64,000 nt of DNA from Mailhella massiliensis (GTDB lineage: Bacteria > Desulfobacterota > Desulfovibrionia > Desulfovibrionales > Desulfovibrionaceae), in NCBI RefSeq assembly GCF_900155525.1, contig NZ_LT706945.1, positions 2,501-66,500 on the forward strand, read 5' to 3'. The notes beneath the pieces are model-generated. The model saw only the letters and a list, made by a program, of their open reading frames with translations, was not told the origin of the DNA and made no database searches. This document shows positions 17,243 to 59,192 of the stretch, in pieces (the first letter of the stretch is position 1; each line of letters begins with the position of its first letter). Position numbers and translations under genes: made by a program.

Positions 17243-17816
17243 GGCTTTCCCCCATGAAATTAAAGTGATCGGCGCAGCAGATATTTCCTTCGGGATGTAT
17301 CGGAATATACCTGTAATTTTATGCTTATAAAAAATAAAAAGTCTTCGCAAGTATTATGCGGCAAGCGTAAAAAGAAACAATGGATATTGAAATTTTAATA
17401 ACGATGAAACGGGAAAAGAAGCGGCAGATTTTTCTTATCATGCGGTATTGTTTGTATAAATGATGAAAAAACGTTGGGGGAGGCGCCGGGGCGGCATGGG
17501 GGGAAGATTACGGTTGTTTTTTTAAAAAATGTTTTATGAAAGGTGGTTGGAAGAAAATTTCGGAATATTTCCCTATTGTGATTATTATAACAACATGGCG
17601 GCGCATGTCCGGCATTCCGCGGGGCGGAAAGGGAACGGAAGCATGTTCCGGCGGAAGACCTTTCCTGCGGACGCTGCCGTACGTTTTCGCCGCGCAGACG
17701 GGGCGGGTTGTTCCGCAACATAAGAAGAGAAAAGAGAATCGGCATTGACACCGTTTGCCCGTACCTATTAAAACCTGATTCGGGCATGCCTCACGGCTTG
17801 CCGGAAGAGGTGCGTC
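17243..17816. promoter_or_regulatory. divergent intergenic region, lactate permease / type I secretion
   Basis: No gene is seen. The 17290-17470 part is markedly AT-rich compared with the rest of the window. On the minus strand TTGCGA (17350-17345) and TATAAG (17329-17324) are a weak promoter pair for the permease, with a short 15-bp spacer. On the plus strand a better promoter is described separately. No clear operator palindrome is visible. Confidence 0.45.
17745..17773 (+). promoter_or_regulatory. candidate promoter of the type I secretion genes
   Basis: TTGACA at 17745-17750 matches the -35 consensus. ATTAAA (17767-17772) or TTAAAA (17768-17773) at 16-17 bases spacing serves as the -10. 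It lies about 45 bases before the ABC transporter start. Confidence 0.55.
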
Positions 17817-20210
17817 ATGAGTGAGTCCCCAGTATCGGTCAGCGCTCCGGCTCATCCGGGTGCGGTTTCTCTTTCCCCGTCGGAAGTGGATTTCATGCCT
17901 GCGCTTCTGCGCAGCCTTTCCACGCTCATACGGCTGAAAGGCAGGCATGTTTCCCCTCAGTTTCTGCTGGCCGGACTTGCCGGTTCCGAAAAGATAAGCG
18001 CCGGGGCCTGCCTGCGCGCGGCGGAACGGGCGGGGCTGAAGGGCCGGGTGATGTACCGCCCGAAGCTCGACGACATTTCTCCCCTTACGCTGCCCTGTAT
18101 TCTGCTTCTGAAGGGCGACTGTTCCTGCGTGCTTACGAAGCTGGACGGGGAACGCGCCTCCGTCATTCTGCCGGAACTCGGCGACGAAGTGCAGACCATG
18201 TCCCGCACGGAACTGGAGGAACAGTATTCCGGCTACGCCGTGTTCGGCGCGCTGGAGAGCAGGGCTGACGCCCGCAGCGAACCCGTGCGGCGTAAGGAGA
18301 CCCGGCGCTGGTTCTGGGACGTGCTGCGGTTTTACATGCCCATCTACCGGCATGTGGCCCTGGCAAGCGTGGTGGTGAACACCATTGCCGTGGCCAGTTC
18401 CCTTTTCGTCATGAACGTGTACGACAGAGTCATTCCCAACAACGCCTACGAAACGCTGTGGGTGCTCGCGGCGGGCGTGACGCTCGCGTATGTGTTCGAC
18501 TTTCTTCTGCGGACCATGCGCAGCCATTTTGTGGATCTTGCGGGGCGCAATGCGGACGTGGTGCTTTCCAGCAAGCTCATCGACAAGGTGCTTTCCATGC
18601 GTATGGACGCCAAGCCGGAATCCACGGGCGCGCTGGTGAACAATCTGCGGGAATTTGAATCGCTGCGCGAATTCTTCAGTTCCACCACCTTTCTTGCCTG
18701 CATAGATCTCCCCTTTCTCGTGCTGTTTTTTGCGCTGCTGGCCTTCATAGGCGGGCCGCTCGTAGCGCTGCCCCTCATTGCCGTGCCCGTGCTGCTCGGC
18801 GTGGGCGTCTATCTGCAGATGGCCGCGCGCCGGAGCGCGGAGAAAAGCTACCGCCACAACATGCAGAAGAATGCGCTGCTTGTGGAGATGGTGAACGGTC
18901 TTGAAACCGTGAAGGGCTGCATGGCCGAAAGCAGTATGCAGCGTCTGTGGGAAGCCGTGGCCGGTATTTCCGCCCAGTCGTCCAACGAGGCGCGCAAGTA
19001 CAGCACCCGCGCCGTGAGTTTCGCCACCTTCGTCACGCAGATGGTGACGGTGGGCATGGTCATCTGGGGCGTGTACCGCATAGGCGAAGGGGAGATGAGC
19101 ATGGGCGGACTCATCGGCTGCAACATTCTCGTGGGCCGCATCATGGCGCCGCTTCTGCAGCTCGCCTCCCTGCTCACCCGGCTGCAGAATTCCCGCGTGT
19201 CGCTCAAGGCGCTGGATACGCTCATGGAGCTGCCGTCGGAAAATCAGGATCAGTCCGCCTGCATGGATTTCGGCTCCCTGTCCTGCGACTTCGTCATGGA
19301 GAACGTGAGCTTTGCCTATCCCGGCGCGCAGAAGCCCGCATTGAACGGCGTGAGCCTGCGCATACGCCCGGGCGAGAAGGTGGGCATCATCGGCAGAATG
19401 GGTTCGGGCAAAAGTTCCCTGGGCAAGCTTCTCATCGGGCTTTATGCTCCGCAGGAAGGTTCCGTTTCCTTCGGCGGGGTGGATATACGGCAGCTTGCCA
19501 CGGCCGACCTGCGCAGCCGCGTGGGTTTTCTGCCGCAGGAGGTCGTTCTGTTCTACGGTACGATAAGGGACAACATCGCCCTCGGCGATCCCACCATCAA
19601 CGACCATCTCATTCTGCGCGCCTCCGCCGTTTCCGGCGTGTCCGACATCGTGAGGGGGCACCCCGCGGGCTACGGCGCGCAGGTAGGCGAACAGGGGCGC
19701 AATCTTTCCGGCGGTCAGCGGCAGGCCGTGGGGCTTGCCCGCGCGCTGGTGCGCGACCCCGACGTGCTCATTCTCGACGAACCCACCAGCAATATGGACG
19801 TGGATTCCGAACGCCTCGTACAGCAGCGCCTTGCTCCCATTCTGGGCGACAAGACCCTTATTCTCATTACGCACAGACTCAGTATGCTCCGCATCGTGGA
19901 CAGACTCATCGTCATGGAGGCGGGCAGGGTGCTCATGGACGGCCCGCGCGATGCCGTGCTCAAAAAGCTGCAGGAGCGGCAGAGGCCCGGACGCGCCGCA
20001 TCGACGGGTACGAAGGAAAACGCAGCCCCGGTTCAGGCGGCGGAAAAGAACGGCGCGGCCGCATCTTCCGCAGGACAGGGAACGCAGACGCGTCCGGCTG
20101 CGCAGAGCGGCCGGATCAGAGTTTCTCCCGCAGGTGCGGCCGCAAGGCCCGCGGAACATGCGGAACCGGCGGGGAACACGCCCGGAGCGGGGAAAGGGGG
20201 AAGAGCATGA
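17817..20210 (+). CDS. type I secretion ABC transporter, permease/ATPase (LapB/RtxB type)
   Basis: This inner-membrane exporter drives one-step secretion of RTX or adhesin proteins. The 797-residue product has an N-terminal C39-peptidase-like domain (about 20-140). That domain lacks the catalytic Cys motif (DFMPALLRSL in place of a QxxxDCG motif), as in HlyB/LapB transporters that do not cleave substrate. A six-helix membrane domain spans about 160-440. The nucleotide-binding domain has Walker A GRMGSGKSS (about 525), signature LSGGQRQ (about 629) and Walker B VLILDEPTSNMD (about 650). The last ~70 residues are an Ala/Gly/Pro-rich extension. The membrane-fusion gene follows after 66 bases. 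Confidence 0.92.
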   Translation: MSESPVSVSAPAHPGAVSLSPSEVDFMPALLRSLSTLIRLKGRHVSPQFLLAGLAGSEKISAGACLRAAERAGLKGRVMYRPKLDDISPLTLPCILLLKGDCSCVLTKLDGERASVILPELGDEVQTMSRTELEEQYSGYAVFGALESRADARSEPVRRKETRRWFWDVLRFYMPIYRHVALASVVVNTIAVASSLFVMNVYDRVIPNNAYETLWVLAAGVTLAYVFDFLLRTMRSHFVDLAGRNADVVLSSKLIDKVLSMRMDAKPESTGALVNNLREFESLREFFSSTTFLACIDLPFLVLFFALLAFIGGPLVALPLIAVPVLLGVGVYLQMAARRSAEKSYRHNMQKNALLVEMVNGLETVKGCMAESSMQRLWEAVAGISAQSSNEARKYSTRAVSFATFVTQMVTVGMVIWGVYRIGEGEMSMGGLIGCNILVGRIMAPLLQLASLLTRLQNSRVSLKALDTLMELPSENQDQSACMDFGSLSCDFVMENVSFAYPGAQKPALNGVSLRIRPGEKVGIIGRMGSGKSSLGKLLIGLYAPQEGSVSFGGVDIRQLATADLRSRVGFLPQEVVLFYGTIRDNIALGDPTINDHLILRASAVSGVSDIVRGHPAGYGAQVGEQGRNLSGGQRQAVGLARALVRDPDVLILDEPTSNMDVDSERLVQQRLAPILGDKTLILITHRLSMLRIVDRLIVMEAGRVLMDGPRDAVLKKLQERQRPGRAASTGTKENAAPVQAAEKNGAAASSAGQGTQTRPAAQSGRIRVSPAGAAARPAEHAEPAGNTPGAGKGGRA

Positions 20211-49669: not shown

Positions 49670-50014
49670 TCAGTGCCTTACGGAGTCGGAAAAGAGATTG
49701 ATGACCGCCACGCCCGCGATGATGAGTCCGAGCCCGATGTAGGCGGGCAGATCCAGATGCTGCCTGAAGTAGAAAACGCCCACGGCGGAGATGAGCACGA
49801 TGCCGAGCGCGCACCAGATGGCGTAGGCAATGCCCACGGGCATGGACTTGAGCACATGGGAGAAGGTGTAGAAGGAAACGATGTAGCCTGCGATGCAGCA
49901 CAGAGTGGGCAGAGGCCTGGTGAACTGCCTGGATGCGTTCAGGCAGGAGGTGGCGAAGGTCTCGGCCAGAATGGCGATGACCAGAAGGCCGTAGGTGATG
50001 AAGGCTCCGCGCAT
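49670..50014 (-). CDS. SMR family multidrug/cation transporter (EmrE/QacE type)
   Basis: This small proton-coupled exporter of the inner membrane has 114 residues and four membrane helices. The essential glutamate of helix 1 is present in LLVIAILAETFATSCL (about Glu16), with GIAYAIWCALGIV in helix 3. The start at 50014 has AGGAG upstream; the frame extends to 50119 but without membrane character. SMR proteins export quaternary ammonium compounds or guanidinium. Its closeness to the choline locus raises the possibility of a quaternary amine or trimethylamine-related substrate, which is only a guess. Confidence 0.88.
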   Translation of the reverse strand: MRGAFITYGLLVIAILAETFATSCLNASRQFTRPLPTLCCIAGYIVSFYTFSHVLKSMPVGIAYAIWCALGIVLISAVGVFYFRQHLDLPAYIGLGLIIAGVAVINLFSDSVRH

Positions 50015-50133
50015 GGTTTTCTCCTGAGGGGGGAAGAGAAGGCGTTGCTGCCCGGTGAACCGGACAGATGGAAAAGCGTGAGGCATCTCACGGGCAGGGA
50101 GGGCTGCGGCCTCCGTCATCCGCGAAAACGCAT

Positions 50134-50273: not shown

Positions 50274-51368
50274 TTACTGGATGGTTTCAGGATCGATGAA
50301 GATCCAGTTCTTGTTGGCGGTCACGGGCATGTTCAGCTCGTTCTGCTGCTGAGCGGACTTTTCGGCATGGTCGATGGTCCACATGGCCTTCTTGTCCTTC
50401 TTGGGGTCGCCGGGCTTGCGGTTGATCCACAGCTTGAGGCCGCCGCGTTCCACGTTCACGCTTTCCAGCATGTAGGTGTCGGAACCGGTGGAGTCGCCGC
50501 CGGCCATGATGGGACGCTGCCACTGGTTGATGTAACCGATGGTGGAACCCTGCTTGCCTTCAAACCAGGTCATGGGGTTGGTGAGGAAGGACGTGGTCAC
50601 GAGGTCCATGTTCTTCTTGGGATCGAACTTGCCTTCGCGGATCTGCATGCGGGAGTTGGTGAGCTCGCCGGTCTTGGGGTCCTTGAGCAGCACGGTCACG
50701 CCGATGACCTTTTCAGGATCTATGTTGTAGCCGTACTTGGGATCGCAGGCCACCATGCGGATGATTTCTTCGTGAGCGGCGGTCATGATGTACACGTCGA
50801 TGCCGTTTTCACGCAGCTTGGCATAGAGTTCCTGCATGCCGCGGAACATCTTGGGGATGGGAAGCTTCACGGTGACGACCTTGTCGCCGTCCCATACCTG
50901 GCGTTCGATGGGCTTCTTGAGGGCCAGCATTTCATCGAGGTTCTGCTTGAGTTCCTTCAGCGTGAAGCCGGCAAAGATCTGCGAAGCCCAGGGGTAGCTG
51001 ATGAGGTCGTGCATTTCGCACAGACGCCAGTAGTAGCTCGTCATGTTTTCCTTGCCGCCCTTGAAGTCCGGGCTGTCCTTGAAGGGGATGAGCTTCAGGG
51101 ACGGATCCATGGTGTCGCGGGTCAGCAGTCCCTTCTGATCCATGTAGGCCAGCAGCGGGTCCAGAAGGTCGTAGCGGTAGGTGGTCTGATCCATGTCGAA
51201 GGTGGCGTACTGGCCCTGATGGGCGTTGGCCTGAATCATGGCTTCGATCTGAGCGCGGGCTTCCTTGGGCCAGTGCTTGAGTTCGGTGGCCGCGTTCGCG
51301 CTGCCGACCATCATGGCGCAGCAGAAGGCGGAGGCAAGCAGAGCATTGAGAAGTTTCTTGATCGTCAT
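50274..51368 (-). CDS. periplasmic HAD phosphatase, phosphorylcholine phosphatase (PchP)-like
   Basis: It is predicted to release choline from phosphocholine in the periplasm. The 364-residue product has a signal peptide (about 1-26, ending GSANA-A). HAD motif I is [11 protein letters not shown] (nucleophile Asp58 and Asp60); the known PchP motif is DMDNT, so only the fourth position differs. HAD motif IV is [11 protein letters not shown], and [14 protein letters not shown] is the motif II region. The length suits PchP. Ribosome site GGAGGTCTCC lies upstream. It is the last gene of an operon with a DMT transporter, opposite the choline lyase operon, which supports the assignment. Another phosphomonoester substrate remains possible. 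Confidence 0.78.
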
Positions 51369-51406: not shown

Positions 51407-51670
51407 TTACCTGATGTAGTTGTTGATGGTGGCGATGGCTTCCGCTCCGGCGCGGAAGAACACACGCACTTCTCCGTTTTCATCAAGGTCGAAACGCGAC
51501 TCCTCGAGCAGACCGTTGGATTCCGCCGTCATGAGGGCGGTGAGCACGTCTTCCTTGTTGAGTGCCTTGAAGCTGCCGTATTCGGGCTTGAGCGCTTCGA
51601 TCACGTTTTCGGGGCAGGCTTCCTGTCCGTTGGTGAAGAGCTTGAGAATGGCGAAGTTCAGAGGCATCAT
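51407..51670 (-). CDS. 87-residue protein of unknown function
   Basis: The product ([20 protein letters not shown] at its start) is small, soluble, predicted helix-helix-helix then a beta hairpin ([14 protein letters not shown]), which resembles a winged-helix fold but lacks a clear recognition motif. It starts 3 bases after the transporter stop, with GGAGG overlapping that end, so it is surely in the operon. I do not recognise a family. A regulatory or partner role for transporter or phosphatase is possible. Confidence 0.75.
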
Positions 51671-51673
51671 GGT

Positions 51674-52759
51674 TCAGCCCTCCTTCTTCTTCGTGAAGAA
51701 CGCCAGGGGATTGGTGGCGATGGTGAAGATGCCGATGATCATGAGGATGGCGGCGATCCAGGCGATGAGGGGCATGTCCCAGCCGTCGATGCCGAACACG
51801 AGGCCGATCCAGATCCAGCAGAAGAAGGGCCCCCAGAAGGAGAACATGCCGTTGCAGGCCATGCCGAGGGCCGCGCCGCACATGGCGTTGCCCTTGTACC
51901 AGAGCATGAAGCCCCAGTAGCAGGCGAAGCCGCCGACGACGAAGAACTTGAGCGATTCGGTGTCGAGCAGGGCCTGAGTAATGACGGCAAAGCCGTCCGC
52001 GCCGCCGATCATGGCGAGGATGGGAACCATGATGATGAGGTTGGAAAGACCGTTGGTCACTTCGCGGATGGCGATGCTCACTTCAGGATCGATCATGGAG
52101 GAGGCATAGCCGCCCACGCACCCTTCGATGCCCCAGCCGAGCGCCGCGCCGAAGCCGAACAGAAGGCCCAGCATCATGTTGGGATGCGCTTCCGTGCCGC
52201 CCATGCTGGACATGCCGATGAGAGCGCTGGCCCCGAAGCAGATGACGATGCCGAGCATCATGCGCGGCGTAAGGGGCTGCTTGAACAGTATGCGGGCGAG
52301 AATCGCGCCGATGGCGGGGCACAGGGCGCTGATAGGCACCACGATGGACCCGGCCTGCTGAAGGCCTATGACGTAGGCCGTGGAGGCGAAGGGGCCGCCT
52401 ATGAGGGCGGCGCAGGCGAGAATGGCGCCGGGTTTGGTCTTGAAGCTGCGGCCGAAGTCGCCGAGTTTGCCTTTCCATGCGGCGATGAGCAGGGCCCATG
52501 CGGCGCTGAAGGTGTCGGTGAGGGCCGCGCCGAGGGCGCTCAGCATGAAGGCCACGGCAAAGGGCGTGAAGCCTGAGTTCTCACCGTACCATGAGGTCCA
52601 GATGCCTACGGACATGGCGAGCGTCATGAACGCCGTGTAGTTGCCGTAGGTGACGCCCGACATGATGGCGGTGATGATGCCCCTGCGCCGGAAGCCGTCC
52701 GCAAGCCTTTTCTTTGCCGCTGCCGCAGCCTGGTTCGGTGCGCCGCTTGTCTGCGCCAT
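51674..52759 (-). CDS. DMT/EamA family transporter, probable choline-locus importer
   Basis: The 361-residue membrane protein has about ten hydrophobic helices in two EamA-like halves; GPFASTAYVIGLQQAGSIVV and ALCPAIGAILARILFKQPLT mark the first. DMT proteins move small metabolites. In this setting, upstream of the phosphorylcholine phosphatase gene and divergent from the choline lyase operon, choline is the likely substrate, but that is inference from context. GGAGGACAC precedes the start. A MerR-type promoter lies about 280 bases upstream. Confidence 0.78.
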   Translation of the reverse strand: MAQTSGAPNQAAAAAKKRLADGFRRRGIITAIMSGVTYGNYTAFMTLAMSVGIWTSWYGENSGFTPFAVAFMLSALGAALTDTFSAAWALLIAAWKGKLGDFGRSFKTKPGAILACAALIGGPFASTAYVIGLQQAGSIVVPISALCPAIGAILARILFKQPLTPRMMLGIVICFGASALIGMSSMGGTEAHPNMMLGLLFGFGAALGWGIEGCVGGYASSMIDPEVSIAIREVTNGLSNLIIMVPILAMIGGADGFAVITQALLDTESLKFFVVGGFACYWGFMLWYKGNAMCGAALGMACNGMFSFWGPFFCWIWIGLVFGIDGWDMPLIAWIAAILMIIGIFTIATNPLAFFTKKKEG

Positions 52760-53035
52760 GTGTCCTCCTCGGTTTGGAACGCTTTTGCACCGCCGCCGTG
52801 GGGGGTGCCTGCATCCTTAAATAATTGCGGGCCTTATCGTGCAGCGCCGCGGCGGACAGCCGCGAAGCCGTTTTTCCGGGGCAAACCTTCCCCTCGGGGA
52901 GAAGGCGCATCGAAATGCCTTCGGCTCCTTTTTTTCGGAAAGAGCTTTCCGTCAAGGGGAAGCCCTGAGACTCTTCCCTTCGGGGAACCTTCAGGATTAA
53001 TCCTGTAAAAAACACATGTTGGCGTAATCATGTAT
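52760..53035 (-). other. structured leader of the DMT transporter operon
   Basis: This 275-base stretch lies between the minus-strand promoter and the first start codon and holds no gene. Several hairpins follow one another: CCTTC/GAAGG type at 52886-52905, CGGAAA-GAGC-TTTCCG at 52936-52951, AAGGGGAAG/CTTCCCTT at 52954-52982 and palindrome CAGGATTAATCCTG at 52992-53005. Such a long structured leader could carry post-initiation control; no known riboswitch was recognised. Confidence 0.45.
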
Positions 53036-53066
53036 AGAATAACCTTTCCCCTAGGGGAAAGGTCAA
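53036..53066 (-). promoter_or_regulatory. MerR-type promoter/operator for the DMT-phosphatase operon
   Basis: On the minus strand TTGACC (53066-53061) and TATTCT (53041-53036) are separated by exactly 19 bases. These, with the -35 edge, include the perfect palindrome with arms ACCTTTCCCCT (53042-53063). A 19-base spacer occupied by a dyad is the known signature of MerR-family activated promoters. Confidence 0.75.
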
Positions 53067-53101
53067 CCCCGATTTTCACAAGGAAAGGCGTTCTTTCACC
53101 G

Positions 53102-53125
53102 CCTCTCGGAGAGAAAAATTTTTTT
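53102..53125. other. small hairpin with A/T tails in the divergent region
   Basis: CTCTC-g-GAGAG followed by AAAAATTTTTTT. It lies between the two MerR-type promoters and could insulate them; the stem is short. Confidence 0.3.
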
Positions 53126-53339
53126 GCCTGATATTATAGGCTGTTCCCTTTTCCCATGTGAGAAAAAAAACTTAATATTGGCGTAATATTTGCCGGAAAA
53201 GGGCGGAGGAATCTTTTCCATCTACCTTGAATGAATAAACAAACAGTTTTTTTGAAAACGCCGCAACAGCGTGAGTTTCCTTGCCTTTGAACGCTCTGGA
53301 CGTTTTTTTTTCTCTTCGGCGCTTTTCGGGGAAATGTTC
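53126..53339. other. AT-rich spacer between the divergent promoters
   Basis: No gene is seen. It includes a second copy (53178-53187) of TTGGCGTAAT, first found at 53019-53028. Several A/T runs suggest bent DNA or unrecognised regulator sites. Confidence 0.4.
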
Positions 53340-53370
53340 TTGACCTTCCCCTATAGGGAAAGGCTATGAT
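53340..53370 (+). promoter_or_regulatory. MerR-type promoter/operator for the choline microcompartment operon
   Basis: TTGACC (53340-53345) and TATGAT (53365-53370) are separated by exactly 19 bases that contain the dyad CCTTCCCC-TATA-GGGAAAGG-like arms (53344-53363). The -35 plus left arm is the same as in the opposite promoter and closely resembles CueR-regulated copA promoters. The first shell gene starts 76 bases further on. Confidence 0.78.
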
Positions 53371-53446: not shown

Positions 53447-54052
53447 ATGAGGTATCACGCTGAAGAGGCCATGGGCCTCATTGAAACCCTTGGGATGGTT
53501 CCTGCCATCTACGGCGCGGATGCCATGCTGAAGGCCGCCGATGTCCAGCTTTTCTCCTATGAAAACGTAGGCTCCACGCTGGTGACCATCATGGTCAAGG
53601 GCGATGTGGCGGCGGTTCGCGCCTCCGTGGAGGCGGGCCGGGCCGCGGCTTCTTCCATAGGCAAGCTGACGGCGCACAACGTGATGCCCCGCCCCGTGCG
53701 CGGTGTGGGCGATATCGCCATGGTGCACAGCGTTCTCGACGAACCCGTCGATCCTCCGCTCCGTTCTCTTGCGCTCATCGAGACTTTCGGCATCGTGTAC
53801 ATGCTTGAGGCCGCCGACGCCATGATCAAGGCCGCCGATGTGGAACTCATCGGGTACGAGAACGTGGCTTCCGGCTATATTTCGGTGCTCACGCAGGGCG
53901 ACGTCGCGGCCTGCAAGGCCGCCGTGGCCGCGGGCATCAAGGCCGTGGAGGCCATGGGGGCTTCCGTGTACAGCTCCTGCGTCATTCCCACCCCGCACAG
54001 GGATCTGGTGAAGATGACGCGCCGCTACGCCATCGAGAATCTTCTTGCCTGA
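53447..54052 (+). CDS. tandem-BMC-domain shell protein (BMC-T)
   Basis: This shell tile of a bacterial microcompartment has 201 residues and two BMC domains in a row. Domain 1 (about 5-95) contains EEAMGLIETLGMVPAIYGADAM-type sequence with KAADVQLF; domain 2 (about 108-195) contains ALIETFGIVYMLEAADAM with KAADVELIGYE. Such proteins form trimers that look like hexamers and often have a gated pore. The start at 53447 is used because GGAGAGAGT precedes it; upstream residues lack BMC character. It is the first gene after the MerR-type promoter. Confidence 0.9.
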   Translation: MRYHAEEAMGLIETLGMVPAIYGADAMLKAADVQLFSYENVGSTLVTIMVKGDVAAVRASVEAGRAAASSIGKLTAHNVMPRPVRGVGDIAMVHSVLDEPVDPPLRSLALIETFGIVYMLEAADAMIKAADVELIGYENVASGYISVLTQGDVAACKAAVAAGIKAVEAMGASVYSSCVIPTPHRDLVKMTRRYAIENLLA

Positions 54053-54097: not shown

Positions 54098-55603
54098 ATG
54101 ATGATTGCCGATAAAGACCTGCTTTCCATGCAGTACGCCAGAATCCTTGCGGAAAACGCGAGGGAGGCGCAGAAGAAGCTGGCCGCCTTTTCTCAGGAGC
54201 GGCTGGATGAGATCGTCGAACATGTGGCCGGAGAAATGGAGGCCCATGCCCGCGCCCTTGCCGTCATGTCCTTCGAGGAGACGGATTACGGCCGCAGGGA
54301 AGACAAGCTGGCGGAAATTCTCTTTGTGTGCCGCAGGGTGCGCGAAGCTCTGCGCGGTATGCGCTGCGTGGGGCCTCTGAAGTGCGACGCCTCCGGCAAT
54401 GTGCTGGAAGTCGGCGTGCCGCGCGGCGTCATTGCGGCGCTGTGCCCCTCCACGAGTCCCGTTTCCACCACCATCTATAAGGCGCTGCTCGCCGTAAAGT
54501 CGGGCAACTGCATCATTTTCACCCTGCATCCGCGTGCGGAACGCTGCATGGGGCGTACTCTCGACCTCATCATTTCCGCCGCATCCGCCTGCGGTTTGCC
54601 GGAAGGGGGCATTTCCTATCTCTCCACCACGACCAAGAGCGGTACGGTGGAGCTCATGCGGCATCCGGCCGTGTCTCTGGTGCTCGCCACGGGCGTGACG
54701 GCCATGCTGGAGGCTGCGGAAGCCTCGGGCAAGCCGCTCATCTGCGGCGGCACGGGCAACGGGCCCGCCTTCATCGAGCGCAGCGCCGACGTGCGGGCGG
54801 CCGTGCGGGACATCGTGTTCAGCAAGACCTTCGACTGCGGCATCGCTCCTTCCGCTGAACAGTGCGTGGTGGTGGACGCCCGCATTGCGGAAGAGACGCG
54901 GCGCGCCTTTGAAGCGGAAGGGGCCTGGTTCATGGGCGAGAAGGAAACCCGCGCCCTGGCCGGGGTGCTCTTCCATCACGACGGCAGGCGCCGCCGCGAC
55001 ATGCTCGGCATAGACGCTCCCACCCTGGCCCGCCGGGCCGGATTCGAGGCTCCCGCCGGGACGAAACTGCTCATTGCCGAGCGCAAATATGTTTCCGATA
55101 CCGACGTGTACAACAGGGAGCTTCTGGCTCCGGTTCTGCCTTGGTATGTGGAGGATGACTGGATGCACGCCTGCGAGAAGTGCATCGAGCTTCTTCTCTT
55201 CGACCGGGCGGGCCACACGCTGGTCATCCATTCCCGCGACGCGGAGGTCATACGGCAGTTTGCGCTGAAGAAGCCCGTGGCGAGGCTTCTGGTGAACACT
55301 CCGGCCGTGTTCGGCGGCATGGGCGCCACCACGGAACTTTTCCCCGCCATGACGCTGGGCAGCGGTCTGGCCGGGCACGGCATGACTTCCGACAATGTTT
55401 CCCCCATGAACCTCGTCTACATCCGCAGAGTCGGCTACGGCGTGCGGAGCGCGGACGACGTGCTTCGCTCCCTTCACGACAGGATTCCCGAAGGGACCGT
55501 TCCCTGTGCCTGCCCGCCGCAGGCGGACAACGAAGACAGGCTTGAAACGCTGCGCCGGCTTCTGAGAGAGGCCGTGCGGGCCCTATCCGCTGAACAGAAA
55601 TGA
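54098..55603 (+). CDS. EutE-type aldehyde dehydrogenase paralogue lacking the catalytic Cys
   Basis: The 501-residue product is a full-length relative of CoA-acylating acetaldehyde dehydrogenases of microcompartments. It aligns throughout with the second dehydrogenase of this operon (59793-61268), for example [13 protein letters not shown] versus LKKPVSRILVNTP. At the active site the intact paralogue has FDNGTICASEQ, but here it is [11 protein letters not shown], so the catalytic Cys position is Pro251; the only nearby Cys is four residues earlier. It is probably inactive or uses other chemistry. The C-terminal helix ([19 protein letters not shown]) looks like an encapsulation peptide. It sits between the first shell gene and cutC. 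Confidence 0.85.
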
Positions 55604-55631: not shown

Positions 55632-58190
55632 GTGGATCTTCACGACTTTTCCAGCAAGATTGCGGAGGCGACCAGGAACCTTTCCCCTGCGGAAAGGGAA
55701 ACCCTGCGCAAGATCTTTGAAGGCGTTTCTCTGGAGCTTCTTGAGAAGGCCGCTGCGGCCGTTCCCGCCGCGCCCGCTCCTTCCGCCGCGTGCGACCACG
55801 GGACGGGCATTCCCGACGGGCCTACCGAAAGGCATAAGCGCCTGAAGGCCAACTTCCTGAAGCAGGTGCCCACCATTTCCATCCACCGCGCCCGCGTGAT
55901 CACCGAAATCGACAAGGCCAACCCCGGCCTGCCGAAGATCGAGCTGCGCGCCAAGGCCTTCCGCCGCTGCTGCGAAACCGCGCCGCTGGTCATCCAGAAG
56001 GACGAACTCATCGTGGGCTGCCCCTGCGGCGGGCCGCGTACGGGCGCGTTCTCTCCCGATATTTCCTGGCGCTGGCTGCGCGACGAACTCGACACCATCG
56101 CCCACCGTCCGCAGGACCCCTTCTTCATCTCCGAAGAAGACAAGAAGATTCTGCGTGAGGAAATCTTCCCCTACTGGCAGGGCAAGTCCGTGGACGAATA
56201 CTGCGAAGCGCAGTACCGCGAAGCGGGCGTGTGGGAACTTTCCGGCGAATCCTTCGTGTCCGACTGCTCCTACCATGCGCTGAACGGCGGCGGCGACTCC
56301 AACCCCGGCTACGACGTCATCCTCATGAAGAAGGGTATGCTCGACATTCAGCGCGAGGCGCGCGAGCACCTGGAACATCTGGATTACGAGAACCCCGAGG
56401 ATCTGGACAAGATCTACTTCTACAAGTCCATCATCGATACCACCGAAGGCGTGATGACCTACGCCCGCCGCCTGTCGGAATACGCCGCCGAGCTCGCCGC
56501 TCAGGAATCCGATCCGGTGCGCAAGGCCGAGCTTCTGAAGATATCCGAGGTGAACGCCCGCGTGCCCGCGCATGCGCCCTCCACCTTCTGGGAAGCCATT
56601 CAGGCCGTGTGGACCGTGGAATCCCTGCTGCCCGTGGAAGAAAACCAGACGGGCATGTCCATCGGTCGCGTGGACCAGTACATGTATCCCTTCTTCAAGG
56701 CCGACATCGAATCCGGCCGCATGACCGAATATCAGGCTTTCGACCTGGCCGGCTGCATGCTCATCAAAATGTCGGAAATGATGTGGCTCACGAGTGAGGG
56801 CGGTTCCAAGTTCTTCGCCGGCTATCAGCCCTTCGTGAACATGTGCGTGGGCGGCGTCACCCGCGAAGGCCGCGACGCCACCAATGAGCTGACCTACCTG
56901 CTCATGGATGCCGTGCGTCATGTGCGCATCTATCAGCCTTCCCTTGCCACCCGCGTGCACAACAAGTCGCCCGAGAAGTACCTGCGCAAGATCGTGGACG
57001 TCATCCGCTCCGGCATGGGCTTCCCGGCCGTGCACTTCGACGATACCCACATCAAGATGATGCTCGCCAAGGGCGTGTCCATGGAAGACGCCCGCGACTA
57101 CTGCCTCATGGGCTGCGTGGAACCGCAGAAGGCGGGCCGTCTCTACCAGTGGACCTCCACGTCCTACACCCAGTGGCCCATCTGCATCGAGCTTGTGCTC
57201 AACCACGGCGTGCCGCTCTGGTACGGCAAGAAGGTCTGCCCCGACCTCGGCGATCTTTCCCAGTTCGACACCTGGGAGAAGTTCGACGCCGCGGTGAAGG
57301 AACAGATCAAGTACATCACCAAGTGGACCTCCGTGGCCACCGTGATTTCCCAGCGCGTGCACCGCGAGCTTGCTCCCAAGCCCCTCATGTCCGTCATGTA
57401 CGAAGGCTGCATGGAACACGGCTGCGACGTATCCTCCGGCGGTGCCATGTACAACTTCGGCCCCGGCGTGGTCTGGAGCGGCCTTGCCACCTACGCGGAT
57501 TCCATGGCCGCCATCAAGAAGCTGGTGTACGACGACAAGAAGTACACGCTCGAACAGCTCAACGAGGCTCTCAAGGCGGACTTCCAGGGCTATGATCAGC
57601 TCCGTGCCGACTGCCTCGCCGCGCCCAAGTACGGCAACGACGACGACTACGCGGACTACATCGCCGCCGATCTCATCGCCTTCACCGAACGCGAGCACCG
57701 CAAGTACAGAACGCTGTATTCCGTGCTGAGCCACGGCACGCTTTCCATCTCCAACAACACTCCCTTCGGTCAGCTCACCGGCGCATCCGCCAACGGCCGC
57801 CATGCCTGGCTGCCTCTGTCCGACGGCATCAGCCCCACGCAGGGCGCGGACTACAAGGGACCCACGGCCATCATCAAGAGCGTGTCCAAGATGGCCAACG
57901 ACAACATGAACATCGGCCTCGTGCACAACTTCAAGCTCATGAGCGGCCTGCTCGACACGCCGGAAGGCGAGAACGGCATCGTGACGCTCATCCGCACGGC
58001 CAGCATCCTCGGCAACGGCGAGATGCAGTTCAACTATCTTGATAACGACACGCTGCTGGAAGCCCAGCAGCACCCGGAAAACTACCGTGATCTGGTGGTC
58101 CGCGTGGCCGGGTACAGCGCCTTCTTCGTGGAGCTGTGCAAGGACGTGCAGGACGAAATCATCAGCAGAACGGTGCTGCGCTCCATCTAG
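55632..58190 (+). CDS. cutC: choline trimethylamine-lyase, glycyl radical enzyme
   Basis: CutC splits choline into trimethylamine and acetaldehyde using a glycyl radical. The 852-residue product carries the residues known for choline selectivity, shifted by +6 relative to the Desulfovibrio alaskensis enzyme: Tyr214 and Asp222 in [12 protein letters not shown], Cys495 and Glu497 in [10 protein letters not shown], Tyr512 in STSY. The radical Gly827 is in [10 protein letters not shown]. The spacing agrees at every point, which separates it from other glycyl radical lyases. The N-terminal ~55 residues form an amphipathic helix plus Ala/Pro linker, probably targeting it to the shell. The start is GTG with GGAGGAAGTATA upstream. 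Confidence 0.96.
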
Positions 58191-58268: not shown

Positions 58269-59192
58269 GTGGAAAGAAAAGCGCTGATATTCAACATACA
58301 GAAGTACAATCTGTATGACGGACCCGGCATCAGGACGCTGGTCTTTTTCAAGGGCTGCCCCCTGCGCTGCCTCTGGTGCTCCAACCCGGAAGGCCAGCAT
58401 CGCGCCTACCAGATTCTTTTCAAGAAGGACCGGTGCGTGAACTGCGGCGCGTGCGTCGCGGCCTGTCCCGCCGGGGTGCACGCCATGGCCGATTCTCTGC
58501 ACGTCATCCGGCGTGAAGTGGAATGCGTGGGCTGCCGTGCCTGCGAGAAGGCCTGCCCGCAGTCCGCCATAAGCGTCACCGGCGAGTACCGCACCATTTC
58601 GGAAATCATGGACGTCATCGAAGAGGACAGACCCTTCTACCAGAGTTCCGGCGGCGGCGTGACGCTCGGCGGGGGCGAGGTGTTCATGCAGCCCGAGGCC
58701 GCCGTCAACCTGCTCACCACCTGCAAGGAGAGGGGCATCAACACCGCCATCGAAACCTGCGGCTACGCGCGGGCCGAAGTGGTGCGCCGCGCCGCGGAAG
58801 TGACGGATCTTTTCCTTTTCGACGTGAAGCACATGAACTCCGACAGGCATTATCAGCTTACCGGCGTGCGCAACGAGCTCATCCTCGAAAACCTGCGCTG
58901 GCTCATGGAGAACCGCTGCAACGTCAAGGTGCGCGTGCCGCTTCTGCGGGGCGTGAACGACGGCGAGAGCGACATCGAGGCCATGGTGCGCTTTCTCGCT
59001 CCCTACAAGGACCATCGCAACTGCAAGGGCATAGACCTTCTGCCCTATCACAAGATGGGCGTGAACAAGTACGCCCAGCTCGGAAGGGAATATCCCATGC
59101 AGGGCGACCCCGCGCTGGATGAAGCCGGACTGGCGAGGGTGGAAGATATCATCAGGCGTCACGACTTTCCGGTAACGGTGATCAGGCACTGA
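58269..59192 (+). CDS. cutD: choline TMA-lyase activating enzyme, radical SAM
   Basis: CutD installs the glycyl radical on CutC. The 307-residue product begins with the activating-enzyme signature: YNLYDGPGIRTLVFFKGCP, then CPLRCLWC (Cys30, Cys34, Cys37 binding the SAM cluster). Two ferredoxin-like clusters follow in the insert, CVNCGACVAACPAGV and CVGCRACEKACPQS. GGGVTLGGGE holds SAM. The start is GTG in the context AGCGGTTTCATC-GTG. It directly follows cutC. Confidence 0.95.
   Translation: MERKALIFNIQKYNLYDGPGIRTLVFFKGCPLRCLWCSNPEGQHRAYQILFKKDRCVNCGACVAACPAGVHAMADSLHVIRREVECVGCRACEKACPQSAISVTGEYRTISEIMDVIEEDRPFYQSSGGGVTLGGGEVFMQPEAAVNLLTTCKERGINTAIETCGYARAEVVRRAAEVTDLFLFDVKHMNSDRHYQLTGVRNELILENLRWLMENRCNVKVRVPLLRGVNDGESDIEAMVRFLAPYKDHRNCKGIDLLPYHKMGVNKYAQLGREYPMQGDPALDEAGLARVEDIIRRHDFPVTVIRH

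Follow-up and report, generated by a model that had tools for sequence, protein, structure and literature searches.

The window analysed here, a 64,000-nucleotide stretch of the Mailhella massiliensis genome, contains a choline utilization (cut) locus with genes on both strands (Table 1). From gene order, the genes on each strand would form a single transcript. Given the gene content, release and import of choline are the probable task of the minus-strand operon, and choline cleavage that of the plus-strand operon. Choline is assigned as the likely substrate of the EamA-family transporter from its context; a search of the PDB with this protein returned nothing at E ≤ 0.01. The small protein encoded next had zero matches in Pfam and NCBIfam scans. 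NCBIfam Qac models match the SMR-family transporter, though under their cut-offs.

Table 1. Genes, promoters and predicted operators of the cut locus (window coordinates)
Feature	Position	Strand	Description or support
SMR-family (Qac/EmrE-like) transporter	49670..50119	minus	Pfam PF00893, 89.4 bits (cut-off 23.7)
Phosphorylcholine phosphatase homologue	50274..51368	minus	PDB 4as2, E=1.2e-118, residues 27-363
Small 87-aa protein, uptake operon	51407..51670	minus	homologues at the same place in genomes G103, G147 and G127
EamA-family transporter (probable importer of choline) at the head of the uptake operon	51674..52759	minus	Pfam EamA, 29.2 bits (cut-off 28.2)
Uptake-operon promoter	53066..53036	minus	-35 TTGACC 53066-53061, 19-bp spacer, -10 TATTCT 53041-53036
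Predicted operator, uptake promoter	53042-53063		perfect 22-bp palindrome; fills spacer and overlaps -35 end
Promoter of cut shell/enzyme operon	53340-53370	plus	-35 TTGACC 53340-53345, 19-bp spacer, -10 TATGAT 53365-53370
Predicted operator, cut operon	53344-53363		dyad, one pair mismatched
Two-domain BMC shell protein, first gene of cut operon	53450..54052	plus	Pfam BMC, two stretches
Aldehyde dehydrogenase of microcompartment	54098..55603	plus	Pfam/NCBIfam scans
cutC, choline trimethylamine-lyase	55632..58190	plus	NCBIfam TIGR04394, 1671 bits (cut-off 1050)
cutD, CutC activating enzyme	58269..59192	plus	NCBIfam TIGR04395, 538 bits (cut-off 360)

Both promoters are located in the intergenic region between the transporter gene and the shell-protein gene. 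An initial reading of the letters (the “sequence-only reading”) had described each as TTGACC separated by exactly 19 bases from TATTCT or TATGAT, with a CCTTYCCC/GGGRAAGG dyad in each spacer, and all of this was borne out when the sequence was re-read. Ordinary sigma-70 promoters have spacers of 16 to 18 bp, and a simple sigma-70 scan limited to those lengths reported neither window promoter. MerR-family activators bind a dyad placed in an overlong spacer and, on binding their ligand, distort the DNA so that the promoter boxes are aligned. The window promoters show both traits of this class: a 19-bp spacer, where the class has 19 to 20 bp instead of 16 to 18, and a dyad operator within that spacer. 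A third, degenerate dyad, CCTTCCCCTCGGGGAGAAGG, was seen at 52886-52905 in the leader of the uptake operon and could be an auxiliary operator or an RNA hairpin; because it is not accompanied by a -35, it was left out of the promoter count. Some sister genomes have a dyad-like sequence near this position.

The rarity of the dyads was assessed in the window and in the whole genome. Allowing up to two mismatches, the dyad pattern matched the window 5 times (two of these being the exact promoter dyads) against 0.42 expected, a count equalled in 0 of 100 shuffles of the window. Exact matches to ACCTTNCCCNNNNGGGNAAGG in the 3,465,670-base genome were found at the two window promoters only. With two mismatches the same pattern gave 65 genome matches versus 38 for a backwards control, so that the lax form on its own tells little. 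The 24-bp pattern TTGACMTTNCCCNNNNGGGNAAGG, which includes the -35, is more selective: at one mismatch or fewer it gave 2 matches in the 3.47-Mb genome and 0 in the backwards control. A search for further copies of the dyad had been suggested by the sequence-only reading, and with this pattern the window pair is all that the whole genome shows. Two weaker dyads (C21:134658 and C27:251376, one mismatch each) have no TTGAC at the -35 place on the plus strand and were rejected.

Conservation was then scored in an alignment of six Mailhella-type intergenic regions. Invariant columns make up 41 of 62 promoter positions versus 61 of 631 elsewhere, and the two promoters are the best conserved 31-bp stretches across the six regions. 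The initial reading had made its case dependent on conservation of the dyads and of their spacing in related cut loci. The alignment upholds it, with one amendment: the 19-bp spacing holds within Mailhella, but elsewhere the spacer of the shell promoter is usually 20 bp.

The gene for the regulator was sought with the Pfam MerR model PF13411, which has five matches in the whole genome. All five lie outside the window, where the initial reading had likewise seen no regulator gene while proposing that a single regulator encoded elsewhere serves both operons. Only one of the five proteins matched the regulators of other cut loci at E<1e-20. This 288-aa MerR/GyrI-like protein (G000:C21:121529-122392) is encoded on the contig that carries cutC, at a distance of 61 kb from it, and provides a candidate for the proposed regulator. 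The other four, each with no match to a cut-locus regulator at E<1e-20, were a 169-aa CadR/PbrR-type protein, a 150-aa protein encoded among core genes, a 275-aa protein beside an MFS-type transporter and, with an integrase-like gene in its vicinity, a 66-aa protein (neighbours judged by eye).

The candidate corresponds to a family that has already been named. NCBIfam model NF053782 (ChlnTransRegdde3219), whose label seems to point to Desulfovibrio alaskensis G20, matches it over the full length (1-278 of 278) and also matches 44 of 44 aligned orthologues, and the name of the model gives the same role, choline utilization transcriptional activator. Since the score of the M. massiliensis protein (418 bits) is under the curated cut-off of 450, it should be considered a close homologue of NF053782 and not a filed member by the cut-off rule; two other MerR proteins of the genome scored 30 and 22 bits. 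The initial reading was not aware that MerR control had been described for cut loci, and in that respect it needs some qualification, because the existing name means that such an activator had been named before. As shown, the model gives neither promoter nor operator.

PF13411 and PF00376 (MerR) are both present in 44/44 of the regulator orthologues, and a GyrI-like domain (PF06445) was matched on the candidate at 51.7 bits (cut-off 26) and in 42/44 orthologues. The AlphaFold model of the protein has a mean pLDDT of 89 and contains a long helix (80-125), predicted to form a dimerising coiled coil. Its two-domain fold, MerR plus GyrI-like, is that of BmrR from Bacillus subtilis (Z 13.7-16.0 over 261-265 residues among the full-length entries listed), and it superposes on BmrR with bound acetylcholine (3q5s) with Z 15.8 over 261 residues at 3.2 A. 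Identity to BmrR is 18-20%, and the C-terminal sequence has diverged. Glu252 is invariant in 44/44 aligned orthologues and aligns to BmrR Glu253 by a weak C-terminal match (3 bits); Glu253 was varied in solved BmrR mutants (E253A and E253Q, from entry titles). Trp112, Trp238, Trp259 and Tyr220 are likewise invariant among the aligned orthologues and would suit a predicted quaternary-ammonium cage. Whereas the target of BmrR is a multidrug pump, the predicted targets of the candidate are catabolic microcompartment and uptake genes. The best sequence match in the PDB (6xl5, E=5e-11, 20% identity) is EcmrR of Escherichia coli, a MerR protein with a GyrI-like domain that was solved with RNA polymerase and promoter. 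EcmrR controls a different operon.

Sister genomes of the genus carry the regulator gene at distances of roughly 5, 12 and 20 kb from cutC or, in one further case, on a different contig, which suggests that in M. massiliensis it has moved off the locus. An upstream promoter of this kind was not found for the M. massiliensis regulator gene itself. Beside the gene are a sigma-54-type activator gene and a second SMR gene (L194:16082-17560 and 17648-17998), the latter 87% identical over 116 residues to the SMR gene of the window. An SMR gene is near the regulator in G103 and G127 as well.

To compare cut loci, we used the best 80 of 273 CutC relatives, some of whose loci end at contig edges. Of these 80 loci, 41 encode a regulator orthologue (E<1e-20) no more than 10 kb from cutC, and orthologues occur inside the cut loci of Firmicutes as well as other Desulfobacterota. 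A lax scan for TTGACMTTNCCCNNNNGGGNAAGG with up to four mismatches gave 190 matches, in 61 of the 80 best loci, versus 23 in the control. A strict scan, which required a TTG start and a -10-like hexamer at 19 or 20 bp, gave 74 sites in 48 of the 80 best loci, versus 1 in reversed sequences and 0, 2, 0, 1 and 0 in five dinucleotide shuffles. (An earlier scan demanding an 8-of-10 dyad, with 8 matches at 19 bp and 14 at 20 bp, was too strict.) Among the 41 regulator-bearing loci, 40 have a motif match at up to four mismatches and 38 a strict promoter. When each of the 74 strict sites was assigned to the best-matching gene in the 520 bp downstream of it, the sites were found to precede EamA genes (33), shell genes (22), the regulator gene (15), an SMR gene (1) or no matched gene (3). 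In several Firmicutes the EamA match starts 380-480 bp past the -10, so EamA may not be the first gene there. The 15 sites that precede the regulator gene itself are in 15 Firmicutes loci; together with the regulator orthologues in cut loci, they support the MerR-type reading of the promoters.

The association of regulator and site was counted in the 54 loci of at least 22.3 kb: both are present in 34, the regulator only in 2, the site only in 5 and neither in 13 (p 6e-7). The loci are kin, so p values here overstate independence, and the last three classes mean that not every cut locus has the system. Among the site-only loci, L026 and L027 are apparently G089:C11 and G147:C50, where the regulator gene is 12 and 20 kb from cutC and thus beyond the flank that was covered. 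Three Clostridium-group loci (L043, L055 and L056) have a tandem pair of regulator paralogues upstream of the cut operon, and second regulator copies with in-frame stops in the match, probably pseudogenes, were seen in L129 (G096) and L130 (G132).

Whole-genome co-occurrence was determined in 149 family genomes, with CutC counted at 80% identity or more. By this threshold CutC is present in 25 genomes, the regulator in 23 and both in 22. The regulator is therefore found in 22/25 CutC-bearing versus 1/124 other genomes (Fisher p 4.6e-22, relatedness ignored) and, conversely, CutC accompanies it in 22/23 regulator-bearing genomes, which links the regulator family to choline genes. In 22/22 genomes with both, the site adjoins the cut operon, and in 20 of these it has one mismatch or fewer. 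Note that in four of the 20 (G103, G117, G129 and G048) it is the divergent uptake promoter that matches at this threshold, with 2 mismatches in the shell promoter; the shell promoters of G091 and G068 have 3 and 2. When the 17-20 kb around cutC was scanned for sites that start with TTG and have up to four mismatches, the CutC-bearing genomes that lack the regulator (G073, G094 and G120) had zero. The one regulator-bearing genome with no CutC at 80% identity (G070) also has no site at one mismatch or fewer. G003, which has only a 62% CutC homologue, was scored negative, and five further regulator-bearing members of the genus stand outside the CutC comparison. In the phylum, NF053782 was matched at E<=1e-40 in 4 of 297 genomes, all four CutC-bearing; CutC was above its cut-off in 5 of the 297 and below it in one more.

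In the family genomes, 41 matches to the pattern were found, of which 13 are away from cut loci (backwards control, 4). Eleven of these 13 were scanned for a -10 box, and 3 have one at 19 or 20 bp. In two (L174:1501 of G108 and L191:1501 of G142) the promoter precedes a weak alkaline phosphatase match (115-122 bits, cut-off 540), and in the third (L188:1501 of G019) it lies some 0.15 kb upstream of a CutC paralogue (57% identity) with one in-frame TAG in the match. The three fit a choline regulon; the remaining 8 look like chance matches.

Taken together, these results make it very probable that the two window promoters are a matched MerR-class pair controlled by a single activator, the 288-aa protein, that choline is the most likely ligand and that distortion of the spacer turns on both operons. 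Under this mechanism, a regulator dimer bound to the dyad in the overlong spacer would keep each promoter poorly used. The BmrR-like sensor domain would bind a quaternary ammonium compound, most likely choline, and the liganded regulator would then twist and shorten the spacer, bringing the -35 and -10 into line for sigma-70 RNA polymerase. The cut microcompartment operon would thereby be switched on together with the operon for phosphocholine phosphatase and choline uptake. We infer binding by the 288-aa regulator and its response to choline from the comparisons above; activation by DNA distortion at the window promoters would follow from what is known of the MerR family.

The identity of the ligand leaves the most room for another view. 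The regulator might sense an amine other than choline (trimethylamine, betaine, phosphocholine or acetylcholine) or a toxic cation, such that a product or side compound induces the operons. BmrR-type sensors do accept many cations, with solved complexes that include acetylcholine, berberine and 4-amino-quinaldine (entry titles), and SMR genes are found both in the minus operon and beside the regulator gene. The link to choline genes, the phosphorylcholine phosphatase and the name of the NCBIfam family all argue against a non-choline ligand, and we regard one as unlikely.

Choline-responsive activation also has to be weighed against repression, in which the dyads would be repressor operators on ordinary promoters and the 19-bp spacing would be incidental. 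Palindromes that are perfect or nearly so and lie over a promoter would fit a repressor too. However, the sites accompany a MerR-family protein, and a scan open to spacers of 17-23 bp placed 77 of its 101 -10-like matches at 19 or 20 bp. We therefore consider repression quite improbable.

Spacer lengths were compared further among the 74 strict sites, of which 20 have 19 bp and 54 have 20 bp, the only lengths possible by construction of the scan. Uptake and shell spacers were also compared locus by locus; in that comparison a -10 was accepted from 3/6 matches to TATAAT, 19 bp was tried first, and sites with identical first 38 bases were counted once, so that some loci (e.g. G129) fall out. Among non-Mailhella Desulfobacterota, 13 of the 13 loci that have both promoters with distinct sequences (L032, L057, L066, L084, L090, L103, L162, L165, L171, L182, L183, L185 and L189) have 19 bp at the uptake promoter and 20 bp at the shell promoter. 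All six Mailhella loci, including that of M. massiliensis, have 19 bp at both. In L028 and L031, two loci titled Desulfovibrionaceae and Desulfovibrio, the shell promoter alone was found, with 19 bp; their CutC proteins are 92 and 88% identical, and they may belong to the Mailhella genus. In Firmicutes, uptake and shell promoters mostly have 20 bp.

MerR-type promoters are known with spacers of 19 bp (MerR) and of 20 bp (ZntR), so a single regulator may, hypothetically, serve two thresholds. A broader proposal is offered tentatively, as a possibility that we hold to be doubtful: a choline-sensing BmrR-type activator could be the general switch of this class of cut locus in Desulfobacterota and many Firmicutes, with spacer length setting the threshold. 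Outside Mailhella the uptake operon (19 bp) would then be induced first and the costly compartment (20 bp) later, and in Mailhella the split would have been lost and the regulator gene moved away.

The sequence-only reading had left the effector open between a choline-derived cation and a metal, and had pointed out that the promoters resemble the copA promoter of CueR. If a metal-sensing MerR protein of the CueR, ZntR or CadR type ran both promoters, choline use would be tied to copper, zinc or cadmium status. CueR senses Cu(I). The operator is indeed like that of copA, in that both have an overlong spacer filled by a dyad overlapping the end of TTGACC, and the N-terminal portion of the regulator is matched by NCBIfam models for CueR, ZntR and CadR. 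These matches are confined to residues up to 113 of 288, however, and reach 30-49 bits versus cut-offs of 143-244 (CueR 44.5 against 147.4, ZntR 48 against 168, CadR-PbrR 33 against 151). The regulator has a GyrI-like, BmrR-type sensor domain and not the metal loop of the CueR type. Moreover, the CadR/PbrR-type MerR of the genome (156.9 bits, cut-off 151.45) adjoins a heavy-metal ATPase gene where the operator, TTGACTCTATAGTCCCTATAGA, is different; the mechanically assigned ORF start of the ATPase gene overlaps this operator. Metal control is thus very improbable. The resemblance to copA survives as MerR-class operator geometry but not as a sign of copper control, and of the two effectors suggested, the choline-like cation is favoured. 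Finally, it is scarcely credible that the dyads work in RNA as terminators or attenuators: one terminator-like match does overlap the minus dyad, but the dyads are upstream of the expected transcript starts and so outside the RNAs made from their own promoters, the 3 Rfam matches were all under the gathering score (E 0.2-0.6), and the 270-nt leader folds no better than shuffled sequence (z -1.0).

CutC converts choline to trimethylamine in the gut. A conserved operator together with its regulator in two phyla makes the regulation of cut loci testable: the motif predicts a choline regulon, the regulator becomes a candidate sensor of choline and perhaps a point at which trimethylamine formation could be controlled, and the 19/20-bp split would test whether the spacer length of MerR-class promoters sets the order of induction. 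Literature searches on MerR and cut returned nothing on the promoter pair, on MerR control of cut loci or on an operator or regulator for this class of cut locus, and an earlier description is possible. Within the reach of these searches, three things are new: the conserved promoter with its overlong spacer, the regulon that goes with it and the 19/20-bp spacer split in relatives. Excerpts of one report (PMC12977544) state that choline induces cut transcription in E. coli, whose cut locus is outside the present comparison, and that regulators encoded in the cut cluster are required there. Some loci of the wider class are said, in part of another source (PMC4207490), to use PocR-domain regulators.

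The M. massiliensis genome has six scored CutC-like matches. Among the neighbouring genes, a glycyl-radical enzyme (34% identical to CutC) and an activating enzyme (39% identical to CutD) are encoded about 16-22 kb downstream of cutC (L192:10213-15928).
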